Shown piece after piece: positions 10,892 to 64,000 of a stretch of DNA of 64,000 nucleotides; the first letter of the stretch is position 1, and each line of letters begins with the position of its first letter. The stretch is from Alviniconcha marisindica (Eukaryota; Mollusca; Gastropoda; Provannidae). The stretch is taken from positions 951,501-1,015,500 of the forward strand of contig JABMCL010000191.1 in NCBI GenBank assembly GCA_018857735.1, given 5' to 3'. The notes below the pieces were generated by a model. That model saw only the letters and a list, made by a program, of their open reading frames with translations. It was not told the origin of the DNA and did no database searches. Position numbers and translations under genes: made by a program.

Positions 10892-11559
10892 TTACAGTGT
10901 TTCCGAACCGTCCTCCTTTCTCTTTGCCTTGCCCTTCAAAATGGCTTCCTTGAAGAGGCGACAGTACAAAGTGATGGCAGAGGGAGAGTCATCATTGCCA
11001 GGAACTGGGTATGTCGTCAGTCGTGGATCACAATTGGTGTCCACAATGCCGACAATAGGGATCAGCAGCTTGGTGGCCTCTGTCATGGCACGATGGCTTA
11101 GGAAGGCATTGTTGAGCGTGCTGAGGAAGATGCACAGGTCAGGCAGTCGCGTTTCTGACTGGAACTGAATTGTCGAGTTGGTGAAAGTGCCACCCTTCCA
11201 ATAGCGACAGTGAGAGAACTCCCCACAGTCTGCTGCTGTCTTCTCAATGACTGGCAGCATCTGGTTGTGCCGACTCAAGAACAAAATGATGCCACCACGG
11301 TATGCTATGTGGGCTGTGAAGTTCATAGCATCTTGCAATCGCACTAGTGTCTGTTCAAGGTCAATGATATCCACACCTTGTCGACAGCCAAAGATGTACG
11401 GTGACATGTAGATGTTCCTGGAACCTGCTTTGTGGCCCAAGTGGACCCGTGCCGAGAAGAGATCCTTGAGGGTCACCAGTGACTTTACATCAAAGTAATC
11501 TTCGTGCTGCAGAGACTCCTGCTCTGGGTTGTGCACTGCTACCTCTGCTGCCGCGCCTG
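10892..11559 (-). CDS. MRPS2: MRPS2 terminal exon
   Basis: This exon carries almost the whole uS2 domain. The 3' splice site is TTGCCACAG followed by CAGGCGCGG. The split codon G+CA gives Ala and keeps the frame. The ORF stays open some 18 codons beyond the splice site, so the intron boundary rests on the AG and phase match. Confidence 0.95.
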
Positions 11560-14500
11560 CTGTGGCAACAATCAATGAAAATACATCAACCAGATAACGC
11601 AACAAATCAGCCAACTTTGTAATACTTTACTCTGCCAGTCCCATGACTTCCAAACTGGGGCAAGGTCACAAAAACCAGCCAGAACATGAAAACTCCCAAC
11701 AGAAGTTACTGAGCAATGTTTGAAAGCTGTTGCTTACAGAACTACACAATGAAATTAATTTGCATCAATTCATGTTTCTGTCAGCCGTGGGAGACCTCAA
11801 TGGAGGCTGTAATCAATGGCAGTGCTATACAAAGATTAAATGACCTTGCTTTGATCAACATATCCAGAGCTGCCAATTGCTATGGTTTTACTGTCAGACG
11901 GAAAATGCTGGGGATGAAATAAAACCATGAAGTGCAATATTGCACACTCCATCTGAATGAACATTGTATGTTTCATAATTTCCCACATGCACATATTTTT
12001 CTAAAGATTACTATGCAAGCAGACATGCACTAGTTCACTCCAGTTGTACACTGATACTACCCAGCCAGGCTGAGACCTTGTCATCAGTGAGTAAGGTCTG
12101 ATCAGAAAAATGTTGGCATGACAATTCTTCCAAGCACTGGACATGAAAACAGTCCAACATAGTTCAACCAAAAACAGGTAAGTGTAGCTCTCCATCTCAT
12201 TCTTCGTTGTTTTTCACCATTTAACTGTTGTTTCAGTGTCATTTTGTAGCTTGATAAAGGGGATTACCCTCAAAATTTGCATGTTGTGTTTTGTCTGAAT
12301 AAATAGCATTCTTTTGAACCTTTTGTGTGTTTCGATCTTGTTTCAGAATGCTAGCACTTGCAGCAGTCATTCCTGTTTCAGATTTTTATGAGATCATGAA
12401 ATAGTCTCTCACTCTCAGTCTCACCATAAAATGATAAAGTTATAAAAATTAATAATGAAACAGTCTCTCAAAACCAGAATGACAGTACTGTGCTTGCAGA
12501 ACTACCAAGACCTGATTTCATAAATGACTCATATGTTACACTTGCATACAGCTCTGTTAAAACACAAAAATGGTTAAAAAGAACATATATCAGTAGTTGG
12601 ACAGTGCAATTACTAAAGCATTCTGTTAAAGAATTTAACCTTTTGTAGGTTTTGAACACTGGTTCGACAATGGCAGCCAAGCACATTTCAATCTGTCAAC
12701 AGTATGTAGTTACAAGCAACTTGACTAAACATGTTACTACTCACAAAATGTCACAAGTTGCATGGTTCTCCAAAACAACAAATCCTATTCTAATCATTTG
12801 TTTATATTTAACACAACTCCATTCTGCAAACAGTATCAAACAGATTTTGAAACCACCCCCAGAACCAAACATTTTGTTTAACCCCTGCAGCACTGACGCT
12901 ATCTAAACAAGATTTTCCAAGCTGCTCTGGAAATTCAATATTCTACCAAGCCCTTTTCTATTCTTATAACAGTTTTTATTACAAAAGCTACCATCATTTG
13001 AGCAGTATTTGTTGAGTTTGATAAGCCACATCAAAATCTTCACACTGTACTGCTCCAGTCATGTAAAAGTGTTAGAGGCCTATTACCATATTACAGAAGT
13101 TAATGCACAGTGCACACACAGAAGCAACGTTCAAAGACTATTGGGTTCACTGAGACCACACGCTTACTGAGACCACAAACTCCTGGTCATTCCAAGACTA
13201 AAACTAGAAGACAAACATTTTTACTTTTAAGCCTTGGGGTGTGCTGGATATATCTTGGGGTGCGCAGTGAACTTAACATCAATGGGCATACAAATCCAAT
13301 GCCTAAGCATGTACAACTAAGCTGTACAACTCACTGTCTGGTCTGACACTCACCAATCACCATGTGTTATTATTATTATTACATGACCTGAGTTGAACTT
13401 CACTCGTGTTCAGTTCCATTCATAAATGACTCAGGTCTTAATCATGACCTCTGGTAATATTTCATACCTTTCTGAAGGCTTGGTGTAATGGCAGAAGAGT
13501 GCAGGAAGTTCTGGTGACGACTCAACACAAAACTGCTGTTAACACCTGTGCTGGTGACACATCGCCATCGGTGTATGCGAAGAAGTCCTGTCAGAGTCAA
13601 GGGGCAGGGAGAAAAACAAAAGTACAGTTTGCATAAAATTAACATTTCTCAACTTCTTTATTAACACTAATTAGTAATACATAAACAGTATAACTGAAAG
13701 TTGAATAACATATATACTGTGAGTGTGATTCAGTGACTGTGTACAAAACTGTTTGTGATCCCCAGCATTCTTCAGTATCTGTTCACTGAGAAAGGTTAAC
13801 AAGAGAGTTTTAAACACAACAGGATGTTTTATTTACTCTAGATAAGTAGATAATGTGTAAACTATGAGATTACTTCTTTATTTGCTTCTTTCACTGGCAT
13901 GTTTTTCATTGGAACAGCCATGGACAGGGTTCACATTAACCTGTAATTTCCAGTATTTTACCAGTCAAGATCAGCATATATATATACTGAAAATACAATC
14001 AGCAATCAGTCAGATGCTGCAACAGTTTGACAGATATTTTGTTTGATCAGTTAAAAAAATAAAAAAATAATGCAGCACACAAGGGGAAGAGTGTGTGTGT
14101 GCATGTGTGTGTGTGTGTTTTAGACTACAGGGAAGGGAGTAGGTTGTTTGCAGGTAGAGCTCTACAATAGTTAGTACTATATTGGGTGATTCAGCAAAGC
14201 TGGTTTGCTAGAGTGAATGCGCTTTGTAATCTTTCGCGCAAGAAGTCGCCAATTTCTGAGTAGGCATTGCTTCATGCTGTGTATAACAGTGGAAGTTCAA
14301 CCTAGAATTGCGAAGCAGTACAAATGCCAATACTGTTGCAGTTGCAAAAATTACTGTGGCAAGGGGATGGAGGATAGAAAAAAAGCGTCTTTGCGTCATT
14401 TTTTGGCTGACCAGAAGATCACGAGTTCGTAGAAAAAATGCGTTTTGGGGCATCCTATAGCATGAGCAACAAGTTACTGCTTATTGCCACACATTATGAC

Positions 14501-51381: not shown

Positions 51382-54300
51382 CTGCACACACAAACATTAC
51401 AGTGATTTATCTTGTCTTTCTATACGCACAAGTTTTGCACTGTTATGAAATACCCCCATTTATACAGACACAAACATGACAAGTTATACAAAAACAAAGG
51501 TTTACTTCTGTGGAGGCAGACCTCACTTAAGTTCCAGCCTTCCTGAGACAAGCCTTACAATAACAAAGCTCCACTTCTTCAGATAATATGGCAACTAAAC
51601 TCCTATGTAAACATAAACATCACACTGCTCGTGTGCACTTGTGTTGCATTTACCCTTCATGAATGTAGATTGTTGTGAATCTTGCTGTCTGTTAGTTTCC
51701 ATTGTGAAGCATATAGGGCTCATCTCGAGATGGGGCACTCGACAAATATTGATGATTATTATTGTCAAATGTGACAAAAACAAACAAACCCAAAACAGAC
51801 CTGAATAGTTAACTACCATGTGTGTCCATTGAATGGTTTCAGTGGATGAAAACATCACTTAATTTCAAACAAATATTTCATCAAATAATATGTTCTCTGA
51901 GTGTGTTAGGTTCTACATACATCACTCTATTGCCTCTGTTAAAAGCATGCCTTTGTCCCCCCAGTTCTCTTCAAATCCAGAGATGCCTGTCTAGGGGTAT
52001 GCTTTGGATGTTGGTACTGCAATTACCCCCTCCGATGACAGTTTGCACACTGATGTACCATAAAATACAAAATATGTGCCTATTATACATACTGTACTTG
52101 CCTTCCACATTTTCATCATCATCACTGTCATCATCAATGTCAATCTCTTCTGGATTGTGAGTCTTGGTCAATTCTCCCAGGTCTTCATCTGTGGTGGTGC
52201 TTCTGTACACACAAATACATTTCCTTAATACATATCATACAGTTCCTCTATACACATCATACATTTCCTCTATGTTTCATGCACACACATATCTCATGCA
52301 CACACATCTACTTTTGCTGCACATACAGCATTCATTTCCTGTACACACATCTCTATGCTCTCATAATGTAGAAGATGGAGCTGCATAAAGCTTGATAAAT
52401 TCATTACTATCGTTATATTTGCTCCTGCACACACATTTCATGTACACACATATACTTCTGTGTACACATCACACATTTCCTGTTTACACAAGAGATATGT
52501 ACACAAAGCATGCATGTAATACACATTCTTTGTACACACAACACAATAATAATAATAAGGCATGTTTTTATGTGCTATTTCTCCAAATTGGAGCACAGCC
52601 TATTTTGGCATTTCAAAGCACCAAAATACAGTCAAAACAAACTTGTGCACACCATGACACGCACCCAATACATGTTTCCTAGCAGAACTGGCCTTATGGA
52701 AGCTTCACAATTGTTTTTGTTTCAATAATCCTGTTATTTGCAATTGCAACCATTTTCTGTTTATTCTAGCTAATGGTATTACCACAATTTCTGTACTACG
52801 CTTATTGATATAATGTGCAACCCCTGAAATTAGGCTCAAAAGTTACAAAATCTAGAGATCAAACGCTCCGGAACATAAGGCACAACTTTGGTGGTGTTAT
52901 AGCTGATGAGCAAAACATGATGGACACATGTCAGATATGAAGGAAAGTGCTGTCATGCCATAATATGGAAAAGTCAAACAGTGAATTTGTTGCCGACAGA
53001 AAGTATGAACCAACTGGAAGAGCACATGCAGCATCATTTTCCAAAGATGAACAGTGCAGCTTCTACCTTAGAGCAAATGCTGTTATATGCTGACAGTATG
53101 ACTAGGCCTACAGGGTCTTTCCAAATCCCATTTCAAAGGGTCATGTCCTCAGTTTGCCAACATATTTGATTCTGGTCTCAGTCTGATGCAGCAACCAATT
53201 TGGGTTCAAAATAGTCATCATCATTCTTAGGAAAAACATGCCTGCTGAAGGCACTACTGACTATAAGGCACAGGGGGAAACTTTAGAATTTTTGTTATCA
53301 CCTTACAGTCCAAAATTATAGTCACTGATCTTTATCGGTACACTGTGTATACCAAACAGGACCAGATCATAATGAACACAAGATAAACCAAAAAATGTCT
53401 TGTACCTGACAAACAGTAGCTTCTTTTCAGCAGCTGCCTTCTCCTGCATGGACTCCTCTGCCAGCTGTCGAGCTCTTGCCTCAAGCTGCTGCATGCCAGA
53501 CTCTGCACCGCCTATCAATCAACATGTCAATGTCTCATAGCTGGATACAAGTATACACCAATTCTCATATTGATCAAATTGAACTTGCCCATCAATGTGA
53601 AACAGCAGATTGGACAGAATAACACTGTAACTGTAAGCTAAAAAAAAAAATCAATACCCAATTCATTTAGTACACACATCAATCAAAATTCACAAAACAA
53701 GAAGAGTGATCAGACATTTAAGATTCCAACCAGTTTCCATTACGTTAACACCCACAATCTTTGAAAAGATTCTGGAGTCACTGCATCAGGAAAGACAGTC
53801 TTCATACTGGCTCAAAGGCCTCCCTTGAAAAACATATAAGAAAATTCCATAAATGTTTCTGTGAAAACGGGAAACACACTTTGGTGATCTCTTGTAAATG
53901 TATTGCAATTACTTTCAGCACTATGTTCCTGACCACATCCGTAAATGTAACACTGTGTTAAACTGGAAAACAAAACAAAAAAACAATGCTTAAAAATCAC
54001 TTCTGTTTTATTTCAAACATTTTTGTGACTTTAGAATCTGATTGTGGATCTTCAAAACAGGTATAAAAATTAATACGAAGTTTAATGAAGGTCATCATCA
54101 CGGAATGGTTGAAATATCTCAGTTACAGTAAAGATCTACCACAGTCTTCAACAAATACAGCAATTATTTCCCTTAATTACACAAACATACATTGCTACAA
54201 AGTTTTATGCATGATCCTGTCTAACATGTAACAAGCACACAAAGTCGGAACTTGATCAGGTAGAAGCTTACAGAAAAATGTGACTAGAAGTTTCAACTTT

Positions 54301-55572: not shown

Positions 55573-58500
55573 ACTGAGTGCTCAGTGTCCATGAGAAGGG
55601 CATGGTCAAGGCAACAGCTGGATTAAGAACATTCGCACCAAACTCAGGAAGTTTCAGATACATAGTCATTATAATATTCCCTGCAAACATTTACATATTG
55701 TAATTAGTGCACATAAACACATACTTTGCCAGCATATCTTGCACACTGTTATGGAAGAAAAATACCACTAGGTTTTGTAACACTTGTACTTAACTGCCGA
55801 TTTGACTCTGTTGTCATTCAGGAGTTTATATTTGATGCATTTATTGACAAAATGCATTTAATCTTCAAAGCATTACAGGTCCTACAGGAAAGATAGGAGC
55901 ACACAGTACAGTTTCATACACTTGAGAGATACATCTCTGAGGATGGTGCTGCACTTCTGTGGCCTGGCCAAGGCCAGTGTCTATAGTGAATTATATCAGC
56001 AAGCATGGTGAACAGCCCTGCCATGCCTTTAACTCTTTCATCCCTGTTTCGTATTTGGCATTACTTCCCCTTATTCCTATGTTCCTATGTACATAACAAT
56101 CCTTTCATTCCTGGGTTTTCATAAGGAAAAAATGTATGAAAGAGGGTATGTGGGTTTGAGTCATCTGTGTCTGCAAGCTCTTAGTAAAACCATGGCAACC
56201 TATATATCGCTGTGTAGGTAAATGAAGTCAGAAGGCAATGGTCACACTTTTAGAGTCACTGTCACCAGGAGGGTGACACACAGGTGCAAATAAAGGTGAC
56301 ACATACCTTTTTTAAGACAAACAGACGAAACCAACATTTTGCAGGCTCACAGAACATGCCAAGAGAAATGGTACATGCTCCCTACTTACAGTCTAATGTC
56401 CCAGGTAACATCCACATAGAAACTGTCTCCAGATATTCCATTTATCACATTGTCTGTGTCCTTAAAATGGTGATGAAAAGGTGATGGTTTGCACAAGAGT
56501 AGGAAGTATGAGTTCACAGTATGATTGTTTCATTTTAGTCTAATCCATGCGCCGTCTCTATCATATATATACACAATGTTTGCACCATAACTCTGTACAA
56601 CTATATTTACTATGTCTATGTACACATCTGCACTGGATATCAGAGGTATGTCTCGTGTCACAGCAGTGTCCTCACCTGTCCACTCAAAACGTGGCCGAGT
56701 AAAAAACAATGGCAGGTTTTCGTCATCCAATTCATCACCACTCTCACTATCATCTTTAAATGCATTTGCAAGCTCTGCTCTCTCCTCTTCTGTCAGTTCA
56801 AACAGATCAAAATCATTTTCGCCCAGATTGTCATAAACATCATTGTCAGAGAACTGATCACTGTCGTTGTACTCATCTGCCGCCATCTTTCCAACAGTAC
56901 AGAATAACCTAACCCCATCCCTAGAAATGGACAAATTTTGTGCACTGGACACTTTCCCACACTCTGGCAGTGGCCAAGCATGGCTAATCACAGCATTGTG
57001 CGGCTTATCAAAACATTCCTCAGGTCCCGTTACACTGGCCAGGGGGAACTGACGTGCTGACCATGTGACAGGTAGGCGTGGATTTCAAAGGCAGAACTGC
57101 TGCAGCTGCTGGCTGGAAGGAAGGGAGTGTTTATGCCTGCGGTTCTCAGGAATGAAGGGAAAGATTCTCTCAACCGCTGTAGCGGTTTTCAGGGATGAAA
57201 AAGTTAACTAAAGATTCAAAAAGAACTTGACACTGTCATTAGTCCCCATGCTCATCTACACTTGGACATTATTCCAACATTTCTACACCTTTAAGCCTGT
57301 GATAGTACCTAGTTAAAATCAACGAAAAACACCTTTAAGCCTGTGATAGTACCTAATTTTTAAATAAAATCACAAGTGAGCATGAGGAATGTTATAAACT
57401 GACAGACCTCTCTGGGACTAATCTTGGCACATGCACAGGCAGAGAGTTCAGATGGAGGAAAGTTGTGGAGGGCTGATGGCTAAAGTCACATTTCATATTT
57501 CACCTGGTCAGCAACTACAGCCGTCTTCTTCTACCTCTAGACATACAGAATAACAACCTGATAATACCTGTGTGTTGTAAGTGGCTTGCACGCTGCGTTT
57601 GATGCGCAACATCTCACGGACTGTATCCTCATTACCATGGTTGATTTCAAACTCCTTCCATGCTTCCCAGAACTGAGGCGCCACCTGTACAAGATCCAGA
57701 TCATCAGTCATGTGACACACCTTCAATTTCTTCCAGCAACACTTATAAAGATATCTAACAGTTATATGAAAGAGTTATAAGGAAAATTAAGCTTTCTGTG
57801 AATAACTTTCAAATCCTACTGACCTACATCAAACAATATACAAGACGTTTTTTGCTTATAATTGCATCAGTCTATCAGCTGTGAGACAAAGACTATGAAC
57901 TCCCTCTGGAGCAAGCTGGACACCAGAAAGCTCACCCAGTCACCCTATTCACAGCTCACCCAGTCACCCAGGCATCACGAACACCTCACCCAGTCACCCA
58001 GGCATCACGAACACCTGGACAGGCTGGTGTTTCTCTTACCTCCCTCTGTTGTAACTTTAGGTTCATGCAGCAGGTCAAAGTGAGCAGTCTGCATACAAAA
58101 CCATTTTGCTGCCCTCATGCCTGCACTCTTCCCTGCCACTAAGGCAGCTGCCCATTGTCTATTTACACCTGAGTGAACTGTACTCGTTCACAGCTGAGTG
58201 AACAGTACTCATTCACAGCTGAGTGAACTGTGCTTATTTAAAGCCAAGTGAACTGTACACATTCACAACCAATTGATCTGTAATTGTTCAAAGCACAGCT
58301 GAGTGAACTACTTTTTTTCCACAGAAGAGTGAACACTACTAGTTGGTTGAACTGTACTCATTCAAACTCAAAGCCAAGAGAACTTAGTTATTTGAAGGCA
58401 AGTAACTACTCAGTTACACTGAGTGAATTGCACTCATTCACAGTCAAGTGAACTATCTTCATTAAAAGTAGAGTTAGATGTACTCACTCACAGACACACC

Positions 58501-61500
58501 TGAGTGAACCGTAATTATTCATAGCTGAGTGAACTGTACTCATTCACAGGCAAGTAAACTGTACAATACATATTCACAAGTGAGTGAACTGTACTCATTG
58601 AAAGCTGAGTGAACTGTCAGCACAAATGGAGGTAGCTGCATCTGAGTGAACAGTCTTCATCTGCATCTGAAGGAACTGTACTCATTTACATCTGAAGGAA
58701 CTGTACTCATTTACATCTGAAGGAACTGTATTTATTTACATGTGAAGGAACTGTACTCATTTACATCTGAAGGAACAGTCTATCTGCATCTGAAGGAACC
58801 GTACTCATTTACATCTGAAGGAACTGTACTCATTTACATCTGAAGGAACTGTACTCATTTACATCTGAAGGAACTGTACTCATTTACACCTAAGCAAACT
58901 GTACACCTGCACCTGCTGACTCACCCTGGGATCAGCCATCTGGGAACCATGAGCGTAGACAGCACGTGAACGATCAATCTCGCCAAGCTTTCGCTCCAGG
59001 TCAGCAAACCGCACACACATCTCTCTGCAATTTCACACCACAAACATTGCAGGTGTACTAAATGGTAAGACAATATATTACACCACAAGCAGAGAGAGGT
59101 ATAAGAGAAGGACTTCAAGTTCATGTGTTCCAAACTGCCATTCATCTGCAACAATGGTACTCTTGCTTAAAATAATAATAATTAAATAGTGGTGTGGCAC
59201 AACCATAGAACAATTACTGCACTTCTCCATGAGTGCAGAAAATTGGTTAATTTATTGACCACAAACTCCTGCTTGGAGAGACATACACGTAAGTGCGCGC
59301 ACACACACACACACACACACACATGTGCACCCGTGCACATGAGTATGTACACTATACACAATTTGAAATCAAGTTAAACAGTGACTTGCGATGGAGGAAG
59401 ATAGCAGCATGGAACAGGAAAACATGGCAGGTCTACTGTTTTGGAAAAAGAAATGTTAGATTTGAATGAGTCCAGAGAGGGTGTTTTGGAGAGGGAAGGT
59501 CATTCCATGTAGAGGGGTACAGAAAACTCACCTGGCCTGTTCATTTGGCAACACCTCGATGGCCTTTTCATAAATGGACCGTGTGTGTGTGATTCCATAG
59601 ATCTCTGCTGCCCGTTTGATGTAAATATTGTACATCTGAAAACAAAACAGTAAATGATGTAGGTTCACCTTCCAAACTTCATGATACATTAAATCAACAT
59701 CTATACAAAAATAACTCAATAGATCTAAACACATCTTGGCTTACAGATATGGCAATCATTTATACAAATACCTGCATGTGAAAGTACCTCACAAAAAGGT
59801 TACAGCCATAAAAAACAAACAAAAAACAACAACAACAAATGTATGTGTGTTTGTGGATGTGTGGAGCTGCCATTGCCAAACATCAGCAAATGCAACAGAG
59901 ACCTTAACTGGTCTGGTTGTATGCAGGAACTGGGTAGTGCAGCTGCTGCCCTGAGGAAAGCAACCCCTAATTTACAGCAGAGTGAACTGTACTCTAGTTG
60001 GGTGAACTGTACTCACTCAGACTCAAAGCCAAGTGAACTTAATTATTTAAACCAAGTGAACTGTACTCATTTACAATGAGGAACTACACTCATTCAAAGC
60101 CCAGTGAACTCTAGCTGGGTGAGTACAGTACAACCACCTTCAACTTCACCCCTTTCTTGACCTGGGTGGTCCTTAGAGCCCACAGCTCATAATGCACAGT
60201 AGACAGCATGCCATACAAATACATCCTACAGTTGCACACAACCTGCTTGCTTTAGACAGAGAATGCAGAACTTGCTGCAGTAAGAAATAGCACTCACTGA
60301 CCATTCTTAAGAGTGCTTGGTGAACAAACAAGCAAAAAGGTTCACTTGTAGCATTCCAAGCATTATTAAAAATCAGAAGCTGTGAAAGAAAATTGTAGAT
60401 TTTCATATCACAGACTTCCTGGGCAACCATTTCTTGAATATTTTTGACATCCTAACCTATTGTTAAATATACAAAAACCTGTAGACAGCAACTGTTAACA
60501 CTCAATTGTCTTGCAATAGCACACTAAACTGCATCAATAATTTTACCTTCTGGTGGGATAAAATCAGTGACTCTAAAAACGTAGGTGCTCTATTCGCACA
60601 TTATACCAAACCCATATTTATATACAGCATGTACACTTTTTCCATGCTTCCTGTGTGGTGCAGTGTATGTATGAAACTGACAGTTTTGAAAGGAGCTAGA
60701 CCACTGAATATGCCTTCATTTTGTAAACATTTGTGGATGTATTAATTAGACCAGTGAATATGCCTTTATTCTGTACATATTTTGTAAATGCGTTAATTAA
60801 GCCTTGAATGTCTGTACACCATTGTAAAAGCTTGCTCAACCTTTATGATGGAGTTTGTTATATCTACCTCCCTACACATCCCTTCCCCACCGCTCTCTCC
60901 CTCTCAACCGTGTGTGTACATGCATGCATGTGCTGTTAGCAGCAGAATGATCCTGCCTAATGATGAGCAACAGTGTGAGCCATTTCAACGATCCATTAAC
61001 TGTGGTCAGCTAAAGCACAAGGCAATGTCCACACACCACAGGTAGTGAAAAAAAAAAGGAGTGCAGAACTGAACCTGGGTCTGTCTGATTACCAGCTGAG
61101 TGCCTTACTGCTGGGCCACATCAAGCTAACCTCATGCCCAGTTTAAAGGATCTCAGTCACAGTCTCCGGGAGAAAGCCAATGCTTTGTGTGATTTATGCA
61201 GAGAACAGTTTCACAGCAGTACTGACCTGGTACTGTTCTTCAGGTGGCACTGCCTTGGTGGCCCGATCATACACACTCATGGCATGGCGTGCCAAGCCGT
61301 GCTCCTCTTCCAGCTTGGCATACAGCAGGAAAATGGCTGCCACAAAAACACGCATCAACACCCCTCCAAACCACAGCTTTATGCTAAGATATGCTACATA
61401 TTTAGTCATGTTAAGAGATCAGAGACAAAACACACTGTAGTGAAGATACACTGCTGACACAAATACCGCTATATAACACCTGATTGGTCAAGCCTAAGAA

Positions 61501-61694: not shown

Positions 61695-61901
61695 AAAGAG
61701 ATAAATAATGCAATCACATATGAATAAACTCTATGCTTTCAAATATATTGCCTCTACCAAATGTAAGTAGAACAGTACTACAGGCACTGACAGGCAAAGT
61801 ACTACAGGCACTGACAATGGTGTACCTTTGGCAAACTTGGCAGGACACCCATCCAAACATTGTTCAAACAGATCTCTGGCTCTCTCCAGCTTGCTGCCTC
61901 C
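51302..61901 (-). CDS. XAB2: XAB2/SYF1 pre-mRNA-splicing factor, C-terminal nine exons (5' part off right edge)
   Basis: XAB2 (yeast Syf1) is a nuclear HAT/TPR-repeat scaffold of the NineTeen-related spliceosome complex, also linked to transcription-coupled repair in mammals. The visible exons in transcript order are 61826-61901, 61227-61336, 59532-59635, 58925-59024, 57568-57684, 54793-54853, 53406-53511, 52102-52202 and 51302-51381. All phases agree, giving 284 codons and TAG, roughly the last third of the approximately 850-residue family. Signatures are [98 protein letters not shown] and [16 protein letters not shown]. An acidic tail ([18 protein letters not shown]) and the end [17 protein letters not shown] follow. 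The intron after 52102 uses a GC donor. Introns are loaded with minisatellites and host a piggyBac-like element. Confidence 0.95.
52102..52202 (-). CDS. XAB2: XAB2 exon with GC donor
   Basis: Encodes [20 protein letters not shown] and the acidic run to NVE. The donor reads GAAG/GCAAGT, the consensus of a GC-AG intron. No GT donor nearby gives a frame joining the last exon. Confidence 0.88.
53406..53511 (-). CDS. XAB2: XAB2 exon
   Basis: Encodes [20 protein letters not shown] to KKLLFV, the coiled-coil segment. The acceptor TTGATTGATAG is weak but gives the right phase. The donor is GTCAG/GTACAA. Confidence 0.88.
54480..54780. repeat. 41-bp minisatellite in XAB2 intron
   Basis: About seven copies of GAGATGGTTGCAAAGTGTAG plus AATTGTCAGGGTGGTCTTCA, ending about 13 bp from the donor of the exon at 54793. 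Confidence 0.93.
54793..54853 (-). CDS. XAB2: XAB2 exon
   Basis: A 61-bp exon encoding [20 protein letters not shown]. The acceptor is TTTGTGATCCAG and the donor GCCG/GTAAAC. Confidence 0.9.
55235..55425 (-). repeat. Dispersed CTTGATAAAGG-family repeat
   Basis: Contains TATTAGGACAAAACACAACA, GGGTAATCCCCTTTATCAAG, CTACAAAATGACACTTAAAC and GAAAAATGAGACAGAGAGCT in inverse orientation, in an XAB2 intron. Confidence 0.8.
55540..55571. repeat. Poly-G tract
   Basis: A run of about 30 guanines in an XAB2 intron; a possible G-quadruplex and an unreliable assembly length. Confidence 0.95.
56033..57203 (-). mobile_element. Internally deleted piggyBac-like transposon
   Basis: The ends CTCTTTCATCCCTG and CAGGGATGAAAAAG are inverted repeats matching 13 of 14. 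TTAA flanks both sides (56029-56032 and 57204-57207), the target site of piggyBac elements. Subterminal copies of a TTCATTCCTG motif occur near 56103 and, inverted, near 57150. The 1171-bp element carries one ORF (56530-56886) and lacks room for the catalytic DDD domain, so it is non-autonomous. It sits in an XAB2 intron in the same orientation as the gene. Confidence 0.8.
56530..56886 (-). pseudogene. N-terminal remnant of a piggyBac-like transposase
   Basis: An intact ORF of 118 codons from ATG ([20 protein letters not shown]), highly acidic ([20 protein letters not shown]), then [20 protein letters not shown]. Acidic N-termini followed by a short W-containing segment before the catalytic domain are common in piggyBac transposases. 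The catalytic part is missing. The assignment rests mainly on the TTAA-flanked ends around it; by sequence alone I would call it hypothetical. Confidence 0.5.
57568..57684 (-). CDS. XAB2: XAB2 exon
   Basis: Encodes [20 protein letters not shown] to QATYNTQ, phase 0 both sides. The acceptor is GGATCTTGTACAG and the donor CAG/GTATTA. This is the best-conserved segment of the visible protein. Confidence 0.95.
57955..58018. repeat. 30-bp direct duplication
   Basis: Two adjacent copies of CTCACCCAGTCACCCAGGCA followed by TCACGAACAC in an XAB2 intron. Confidence 0.9.
58160..58910. repeat. ~25-bp minisatellite in XAB2 intron
   Basis: Units of AGCTGAGTGAACTGTACTCA type grade into ATCTGAAGGAACTGTACTCA type, the latter spaced 25 bp, up to about 15 bp from the XAB2 donor at 58925. 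A related short array occurs in the neighbouring intron (59970-60125). Confidence 0.92.
58925..59024 (-). CDS. XAB2: XAB2 exon
   Basis: Encodes [20 protein letters not shown] and [14 protein letters not shown]. The donor is CCCAGG/GTGAGT. It immediately follows, in genome order, a 25-bp minisatellite in the downstream intron. Confidence 0.93.
59296..59324. repeat. (CA)n microsatellite
   Basis: Short CA run in an XAB2 intron. Confidence 0.95.
59532..59635 (-). CDS. XAB2: XAB2 exon
   Basis: Encodes [20 protein letters not shown] to NEQA. The acceptor is TGTTTTCAG and the donor GCCAG/GTGAGT, phase 2 out. Confidence 0.95.
59970..60125. repeat. Second GTGAACTGTACTCA-type array
   Basis: Copies such as AGTGAACTGTACTCTAGTTG and CAAGTGAACTGTACTCATTT belong to the same repeat family as 58160-58910 but lie in the adjacent XAB2 intron, with the exons at 58925 and 59532 between them. 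Confidence 0.8.
61045..61135 (-). mobile_element. tRNA-derived SINE head or tRNA relic
   Basis: On the minus strand there is an A-box-like TGGCCCAGCAGTAAGGCACT, a B-box-like CCAGGTTCAGTTCTGCACTC and then a run of ten T (polymerase III terminator). Acceptor-stem ends do not pair, so it is not a functional tRNA gene. Confidence 0.5.
61227..61336 (-). CDS. XAB2: XAB2 exon
   Basis: Encodes [20 protein letters not shown] and [17 protein letters not shown], a complete HAT repeat helix pair. The acceptor is TTTTTGTGGCAG and the donor CAG/GTCAGT. Confidence 0.95.
61630..61690. repeat. (CA)n microsatellite
   Basis: About 60 bases of CA repeat in an XAB2 intron. Confidence 0.97.
61826..61901 (-). CDS. 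XAB2: XAB2 exon (first visible)
   Basis: Encodes [20 protein letters not shown] and AKFAK plus one base. The donor is AAAG/GTACAC. The acceptor GGATTGTGTACAG lies at the edge of a minisatellite and lacks a pyrimidine tract. Confidence 0.93.
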
Positions 61902-61907
61902 CTGTAC

Positions 61908-63475
61908 ACAATCCATTACACTTACACTGTTACAGCAGTGGCATTGTTGACCATCACACAGTCCATTACACTTACACTGTTACAGCAGTGGCATTATTGG
62001 CCATCACACAGTCCACTACACTCTCAGCAGCGCCATTGTAGGCTGTCACACAGTCCATTACACTTACACTTTTACAGCAGTGGCATCATTGGCCATCACA
62101 GTCTACTACACTCACAGCAGTGGCATTGTTGGCTGTCACACAGTCCACTACACTTACACTGTTACAGCAGTGGCATTGTTGGCCATCACACAGTCCATTA
62201 CACTTACACTGTTACAGCAGTGGCATTGTTGGCCATCACACAGTCCATTACGCTGACAGCAGTGGCATTGTTGACAGTCACACAGTCCACTACACTTACA
62301 CTGTTACAGCAGTGGCATTGTTGGCCATCACACAGTCCATTACACTTACACTGTTACAGCAGTGGCATTGTTGGCCATCACACAGTCCATTACACTTACA
62401 GCAGTGGCATTGTTGGCTGTCACAGTCCATTACACTTTTACAGCAGTGGCATTGTTGGCCATCACACAGTCCATTACACTTACAGCAGTGGCATTGTTGG
62501 CTGTCACAGTCCATTATACTTACACTTTTACAGCAGTGGCATTGTTGGCCATCACACAGTCCATTACACTTACAGCAGTGGCATTGTTGGCTGTCACAGT
62601 CCATTACACTTACACTTTTACAGCAGTGGCATTGTTGGCCATCACACAGTCCATTACACTTACAGCAGTGGCATTGTTGGCTGTCACAGTCCATTACACT
62701 TACACTTTTACAGCAGTGGCATTGTTGGCCATCACACAGTCCATTACACTTACAGCAGTGGCATTGTTGGCTGTCACAGTCCATTACACTTTTACAGCAG
62801 TGGCATTGTTGGCCATCACACAGTCCATTACACTTACAGCAGTGGCATTGTTGGCTGTCACAGTCCATTACACTTACACTTTTACAGCAGTGGCATTGTT
62901 GGCCATCACACAGTCCATTACACTTACAGCAGTGGCACTGTTGGCCGTCACAGTCCATTACACTTACATTTTTACAGCAGTGGCACTGTTGGCCATCACA
63001 CTTACATTGTTACAGGAGTGGCATTGTTGGCCGTCACACAGTCCATTACACTTACACTTTTACAGCAGTGGCACTGTTGGCCATCACACAGTCCATTACA
63101 CTGACAGCAGTGGCATTGTTGGCCGTCATACAGTCCACTACACTTATAGCAGTGGCATTGTTGGCTGACACACAGTCCATTACACCTACAGCAGTGGCAT
63201 TGTTGGCCGTCACACAGTCCACTACACTTACAGCAGTGGCATTGATGGCCGTAGCAGTGACATTTTTGACCATCACAAAGTCCACTACACTTACAGCAGT
63301 GGCGTTGTTGGCTGTTGCACAGTCCACTACACTTACAGCAGTGCCATTGTTGGCTGTCACAAACAGTCTATTACACTTTCAGCAGTGCCACTGTTCGGTG
63401 TCACAGTCTATTACACTTACAGCAGTGTGTCACAAACAGTCCATTACACTTACAGCAGTGGCATTGTAATCAAAA
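61908..63475. repeat. Large 50/40-bp minisatellite with 90-bp higher-order unit, XAB2 intron
   Basis: The long unit (50 bp) is CACAGTCCATTACACTTACA, CTGTTACAGCAGTGGCATTG and TTGGCCATCA; the short unit lacks part of the middle. From about 62520 to 62790 long and short units alternate with a 90-bp period (TACACTTTTA at 62521, 62611 and 62701). There are roughly 35 units. The array begins about seven bases from the XAB2 exon at 61901. ORFs of 220-449 codons across it are artefacts of a period divisible by three. Confidence 0.95.
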
Positions 63476-64000
63476 CTGGTATGAATGGAACAATCACAAA
63501 TTCAAACAGTTATTGTGTGGCCAAGTTTGAAAGACCTGGCTTTGACAACAGCATGGAAAAAACACTCCACCTGCAAGCTAAGTTTCACAGTGCTTCCTGA
63601 TGGCGCTTTCTTCTGATGGTTTTACCATGGTTGGCCAACCTGCTGGTCACTGATCATTACACACATCCATGAAATTGGATTTTTATGCCAGTTGAAAAAC
63701 AGTTCATCATTAACAGGACTACAGTAGTAGAAAAAGTAGAGCCTAATGCATATTATGATCACACAAGTTGTAACAGCATGTGACACACACTGAAAGCACA
63801 ACACAAACAGGCAAACAATTTGTATTTTTTGACACAGACAGAAAGGGAAAAAAAAGAAAAAAAAAGCTACCTCTTAAAGAACATGTTAATCATTTAGTAA
63901 TCATTTCAACAAAACAAGCATGCAAATTTTTACTTTGTTTGAACAAAAAACACAAAATACACTTTGATTTAACCATTTTAGTGGCATTGTGATCTTAAAA
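63476..64000. other. Remainder of XAB2 intron to window edge
   Basis: AT-rich sequence with an A-rich stretch near 63846-63866. The preceding XAB2 exon (the segment before GGSKLER) is not present on either strand, so it lies beyond 64000. Confidence 0.7.

Follow-up and report, generated by a model that had tools for sequence, protein, structure and literature searches.

The closest precedent for the locus described here appears to be the minisatellite of human IFI6 (6-16/G1P3), two repeat units of which are used as donors in the mRNA (Turri et al., 1995, as cited in the accessible part of PMC4526556). In this study, we analyzed a window of 64,000 nucleotides (nt) from the gastropod Alviniconcha marisindica (GenBank assembly GCA_018857735.1, contig JABMCL010000191.1, positions 951,501 to 1,015,500 of the forward strand), in which an intron of XAB2/SYF1, encoded on the minus strand, is mostly occupied by a minisatellite that carries 26 sense copies of the donor hexamer GTAAGT and runs into the 3′ splice site of that intron. 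Similar to IFI6, this is an intragenic minisatellite with donor sequences borne by the unit, and the focal unit contains the donor core; unlike IFI6, whose array follows an exon and has donors used in mRNA as far as that source describes it, the XAB2 array ends at an acceptor and its donors are putative. Among the matches listed for the literature on minisatellites and splicing, no report of the XAB2 array was found. In this snail genome, which is rich in minisatellites, the array is probably an ordinary intronic one, specific to its locus and normally spliced out with its intron.

Other described systems share features with this locus. According to the available text of Gal-Mark et al. (2009; PMC2766253), a pyrimidine tract lets an upstream 5′ splice site beat a stronger downstream one via TIA proteins, and the 22 eukaryotes analyzed there show an enrichment of such tracts in the first 20 nt or so downstream of 5′ sites. 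The XAB2 intron resembles this arrangement in having a weakly pairing donor, a long pyrimidine tract next to it and better-pairing donors downstream; it differs in that no inverse relation between tract and pairing is seen across 19 donors of the gene, and any role of TIA proteins in its site choice is putative. The decoy exons of OGT intron 4, ARGLU1 and SF3B1, the last also a splicing factor, likewise provide extra intronic donor-like sites; in the accessible part of PMC12017769 they are cassettes with both 3′ and 5′ sites that act in intron retention, whereas the XAB2 array is almost without acceptors. UBC and other tandem-repeat genes, in which splice signals are also multiplied by tandem repetition, are described as having AG/GT sites (the slash marking the splice junction) that can act as donor or as acceptor (available portion of PMC10809524). 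Unlike in UBC as described there, none of the 26 GTAAGT copies reads AG/GTAAGT, and AGGTAAGT occurs 0 times in the array, which is left without AG/GT sites of the recursive or dual-specific kind; the resemblance lies instead in intron 9 of XAB2, where two copies of a repeated acceptor read ACAG/GTAAA.

The gene identity proposed in a first-pass annotation of the window, XAB2, was borne out by several lines of evidence. The focal exon corresponds to residues 569-593 of human SYF1 (PDB chain 5mqf_M, E 8e-10), and a tblastn search with a human XAB2 sequence returned 20 matching stretches from 81362 to 52112 in extended coordinates, which comprise the window and the adjoining stretches L002-L004 (overlaps identical; 93.7 kb in all). 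GT-AG junctions were set by eye for 19 of these stretches; the resulting table covers human residues 18-738, leaving out the gene start and the last exons, introns are numbered from the first modelled exon, and one further match, to human residues 795-829, does not form part of the joined frame. The 19 exons join, as a spliced SYF1 frame should, into an open frame of 720 residues with no stop. The joined protein shows 94% identity to an 862-residue protein encoded on a 2869-base contig and, over the whole query, 90% and 86% identity to a Pomacea canaliculata protein and a Haliotis SYF1-like protein, respectively.

Modelled intron 14 is 2124 nt long. Its donor, TAT/GTGAGT, lies at extended position 64025, 25 bases past the end of the window, after an exon that ends at 64026 (...DRY); its acceptor AG occupies 61903-61902, and the 76-nt exon 15 (61826..61901, minus strand) begins at 61901, preceded by a phase-0 intron and in frame in the 19-exon model. 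The acceptor at 61902 is supported because the two relatives inspected (P0001 and P0002) read through the junction unbroken, the 12 residues that span it being continuous in both.

The minisatellite extends over 61902..63470 (minus strand), approximately 1569 nt and thus most of the intron; the remainder runs from 63471 to the window end at 64000 and on to 64025. Its unit on the sense strand is GTGTAATGGACTGTGTGATGGCCAACAATGCCACTGCTGTAA, with forms of 40, 42 and 50 nt arranged head to tail, as expected of a minisatellite (units of about 10-100 bp). In the middle of the array the 40- and 50-nt forms often alternate as a 90-nt higher-order unit, and a repeat finder recovered periods of 42 and 90 with 29.6 and 14.5 copies, respectively. 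The 22-nt core of the unit is present in 34 copies at up to 7 substitutions, 31 of them at up to 3. All 16 exact copies fall within 62903-62183, and those toward both array ends are worn; a uniform middle with worn ends is what unequal exchange would give. Tandem repetition in intron 14 is certainly beyond chance. A search of the 818 Mb assembly (2806 contigs) with the unit reported 20 matches, all in intron 14, a count that is a lower bound since the search skips common words. A dispersed satellite was therefore rejected with the same limit on its counts, as was derivation of the unit from exon 15, to which the second half of the unit has no clear match by eye. On the plus strand of the array, a stretch of 213 codons without stops (62359-62997, AVALLAITQSITLT...) is probably a by-product of the unit lengths.

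Arrays of this kind are common around the focal one. In 20 control stretches of the same contig (200 kb in total, including 25 kb of N), 62 arrays of at least 100 bp cover 9.9% of the sequence, and 5 of the 18 modelled XAB2 introns contain arrays longer than 200 bp. Of 3883 45-mers drawn at random from the contig, 89 (about 2.3%) contain the hexamer GTAAGT on either strand. At least three copies on one strand occur in one of the 62 control arrays (L005:785-1741) and, among the 13 arrays found in the extended 93.7 kb, in the focal array alone. A GTAAGT-bearing repeat unit is accordingly not surprising, one lucky founding unit being enough. The first-pass annotation had called unusual an intron with so many decoy donors and a weak acceptor in a splicing-factor gene; the hexamer content per array is at chance level, however, and both the contig and XAB2 commonly contain arrays. 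The control array at L005:785-1741 is itself a second GTAAGT-rich array, with 42 copies in 957 bp, many of them as GTAAGTAAGT.

The array end makes up the working 3′ splice site. Its last partial unit (61902..61921, minus strand), GTGTAATGGATTGTGTACAG, equals the unit start GTGTAATGGACTGTGTG with one change, followed by AG; because the exon cuts the last copy after GTGTAATGGATTGTGTACAG, the acceptor in use is the unit's own sequence, and the earlier placement of the array end at the acceptor is confirmed. CAG is kept at the corresponding position in 9 of the 25 units that can be matched. The acceptor had also been described as weak and lacking a pyrimidine tract. It does have the fewest pyrimidines of the 19 modelled XAB2 acceptors in the 20 bases before AG (8), and only one other acceptor lies closer to its preceding AG (19 nt here). 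On leave-one-out profiles built from the other 18 acceptors, however, it ranks first of 19 with both window sizes, because XAB2 acceptors here are UG-rich. By the gene's own standard, a thin one of 18 sites for acceptors as well as for donors, weakness of the acceptor is not supported.

The 26 sense copies of GTAAGT run from 63453 down to 61925, and the opposite strand of the array has none; elsewhere in the window there are 7 on the minus strand (33 minus 26) and 17 on the plus strand. The hexamer had been said to occur in most units, giving about thirty decoy donors that are ideal U1 sites. Its presence in most units stands (26 hexamers, 34 core copies), thirty is slightly high, and the match to U1 is ideal for positions +1 to +6 alone. 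The base at −1 is T in all 26 (12 GCT, 12 AGT and 2 AAT), so that none has G there and none reads the full consensus CAG/GTAAGT. A T at −1 does not rule a donor out, because it is shared by 2 of the 19 real XAB2 donors, including that of the focal intron. On an approximate human donor matrix, the true donor scores 7.41 and only 2 of the 26 decoys score higher.

What would keep these decoys silent is suggested by several features of the intron. Only one of the 74 AGs in the array scores at least 5 (0.64 per kb, compared with 4.04 per kb in other intron sequence), and the array donors would thus have almost no partners for a decoy exon within this acceptor-poor sequence. The first decoy comes 572 nt after the true donor, and a 24-nt pyrimidine run (extended 64020-63997, minus strand, its last bases at 63997..64000 in the window) starts at +6 of that donor, inside the span of some 20 nt in which the tracts of TIA-assisted sites are found. 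With 25 pyrimidines in the 30 bases after the donor hexamer, the true donor ranks first of the 19 XAB2 donors, and only 15 of 1901 GTs in the gene region, the true donor included, reach such content; after the 26 decoys the pyrimidine fraction averages 0.43 and does not exceed 0.50. Masking of the decoys by RNA structure was considered and rejected: the sense array is predicted to be less stable than its dinucleotide shuffles (z +2.1, 12 shuffles), and the openness predicted for the GTAAGT sites exceeds the mean of the array (0.59 vs. 0.44). It is the antisense array RNA whose predicted fold is more stable than its shuffles (z −4.8; 12 shuffles).

Beyond the anatomy, the counts, the scores and the single reported locus, all of which are direct observations, a simple history can be proposed. 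The minisatellite probably arose within intron 14 from a founding unit that held GTAAGT by chance, the hexamer being multiplied along with the unit. Coding constraint would have stopped the spread of the array at the exon edge, leaving the last unit to serve as the 3′ splice site. In the present intron, U1 would meet the true donor first, and the adjoining pyrimidine run may help this weak donor win. Intron 14 is probably removed cleanly, because the true donor comes first, a pyrimidine run lies beside it and the array is almost without acceptors.

Several results weigh against this account. All 26 decoys pair better than the true donor with the 5′ end of U1 (−7.3 to −8.3 vs. −5.5 kcal/mol), and on the profile of the other 18 XAB2 donors 14 of them, namely the AGT (5.69) and AAT (7.36) forms, score above the true donor (5.56), the GCT forms scoring 1.60. 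The pairing of the true donor is tied for weakest among the 19, whose median of −8.0 kcal/mol is reached by 12 decoys. The decoys thus compete by U1 pairing, and less by sequence context. They are also more open than the true donor in the predicted structure (0.59 vs. 0.39). Across the 19 XAB2 donors, downstream pyrimidine content is unrelated to U1 pairing (rho 0.03, p 0.90), and the intron 9 donor, which is equally weak, has the lowest downstream pyrimidine content of all. Finally, array edges lie nearer to splice sites than random placement predicts (p 0.0017 for five introns, 0.014 without the focal one), with array extents set by hand and one gene as background.

The proximity of array edges to splice sites has two possible sources: arrays may be seeded at intron ends, or they may spread until selection halts them at the exon edge. 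If tandem duplication of intron ends were favored in this genome, the focal array and a ladder of repeats in intron 9 would both be outcomes of it. Intron 9 (extended 68626-69121; L002:4726-5221; contig 1020126-1020621) indeed repeats its own acceptor together with the start of exon 10 in three upstream copies, 86, 172 and 240 nt from the true site, which the repeat finder recovers as well, and the array of intron 11 ends 15 nt from its acceptor. However, a nearby duplicate of the terminal 40-mer is no more frequent at the 19 acceptors or the 19 donors than at 1412 other sites in the gene (p 0.54 and 0.65, respectively), and spread up to a constrained exon edge would look identical. Because the two placement tests disagree, seeding at splice sites was kept as a rival explanation, and we consider it unlikely.

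The intron 9 ladder may deserve the name of decoy array more than the focal repeat does. A possible fourth copy 324 nt upstream aligns poorly and is not recovered by the repeat finder; with it, the candidate copies are spaced 86, 86 and 68 nt apart. On the gene profile the candidates at 86, 172, 240 and 324 nt score 6.3, 12.6, 10.9 and 14.5, three of the four outscoring the true site (7.8), and those at 86 and 172 nt are the ones in which an acceptor is fused to a donor-like core.

A regulatory role of the focal array is possible and is not favored here. In one form, the array would bind many U1 particles and slow pairing of the true sites, producing regulated retention set by array length. 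Besides its 26 hexamers, the array has 40 GT sites in all whose pairing with U1 equals or exceeds that of the true donor (25.5 per kb vs. 6.5 per kb elsewhere in the introns), and a retained intron 14 would meet an in-frame stop at its 16th codon. XAB2 is itself a splicing factor, the depletion of which leads to intron retention in human cells (accessible part of PMC6735682). The acceptor poverty of the array, the high rank of the acceptor on the gene's own profile and a hexamer content per array at chance level all argue against such a switch, which we regard as quite unlikely.

Very unlikely, too, is a second form, in which a decoy or poison exon of at least 336 nt would cause decay or splicing stalling in the manner of OGT and SF3B1. 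It would use the best unused acceptor-like site of the intron (63790..63809, minus strand, TGTTTGTGTTGTGCTTTCAG / TTTGTGTTGTGCTTTCAG; score 9.0), which lies outside the array and upstream of its donors. This candidate could pair with the first four array donors to give exons of 336, 369, 453 and 495 nt, each with its first predicted in-frame stop at codon 56, and decoy exons with several weak sites do act in OGT and SF3B1 (PMC12017769, available text). However, 18 of the 1065 unused intronic AGs of the gene, this one included, score as high, and the OGT decoy exon forms given in the same text, about 150 nt, are shorter than the predicted cassettes.

More improbable still is that the array acts as a length-variable sink for U1, with retention responding to the supply of U1 and TIA and to array length, a copy-number-tuned feedback on a splicing factor for which the intron 9 ladder would be a second device. 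If that were true, a private satellite would have amplified a donor core opposite a weak true donor rescued by a pyrimidine tract. An assembly artefact in the array or its flush end is hardly credible, since the extended 93.7 kb contains no N, the edge units are worn, a single locus is reported and both flanking exons are intact, although assembly of long, near-identical repeats of 90 nt is difficult and the exact copy number is probably not to be trusted.

With 26 candidate donors that outpair the real one, an array poor in acceptors and a pyrimidine tract beside the true donor, intron 14 lends itself naturally to the question of how decoys are passed over by the spliceosome. Clean removal would mean that the choice of donor clearly does not depend on U1 pairing alone; otherwise, a satellite would be tuning a splicing-factor gene. 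The locus also illustrates how a functional 3′ splice site can come to be built partly from a private minisatellite.

Other loci in the window include a long coding stretch at 10910-11566 (minus strand), recognized by eye, which we take to resemble mitochondrial ribosomal protein S2. Scans of the window with Rfam and for tRNAs found nothing. An acidic, 80-codon open stretch with a good coding score (56650-56889, minus strand) sits between the XAB2 exon at 57568 and an XAB2-like stretch at 53399-53506, and is possibly another gene or an XAB2 exon.

Two further XAB2 introns contain long arrays of their own. The array of intron 11 (L002:2476-4121) consists of about 42 copies of a 32-nt unit, many of which carry CACTGAC or CACTAAC, presumably resembling branch-point motifs. 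In intron 18, an array of 25-nt repeats (58161-58904) starts some 20 nt downstream of the donor at 58924, and related-looking 25-nt units appear again around 59980-60110 in another XAB2 intron.

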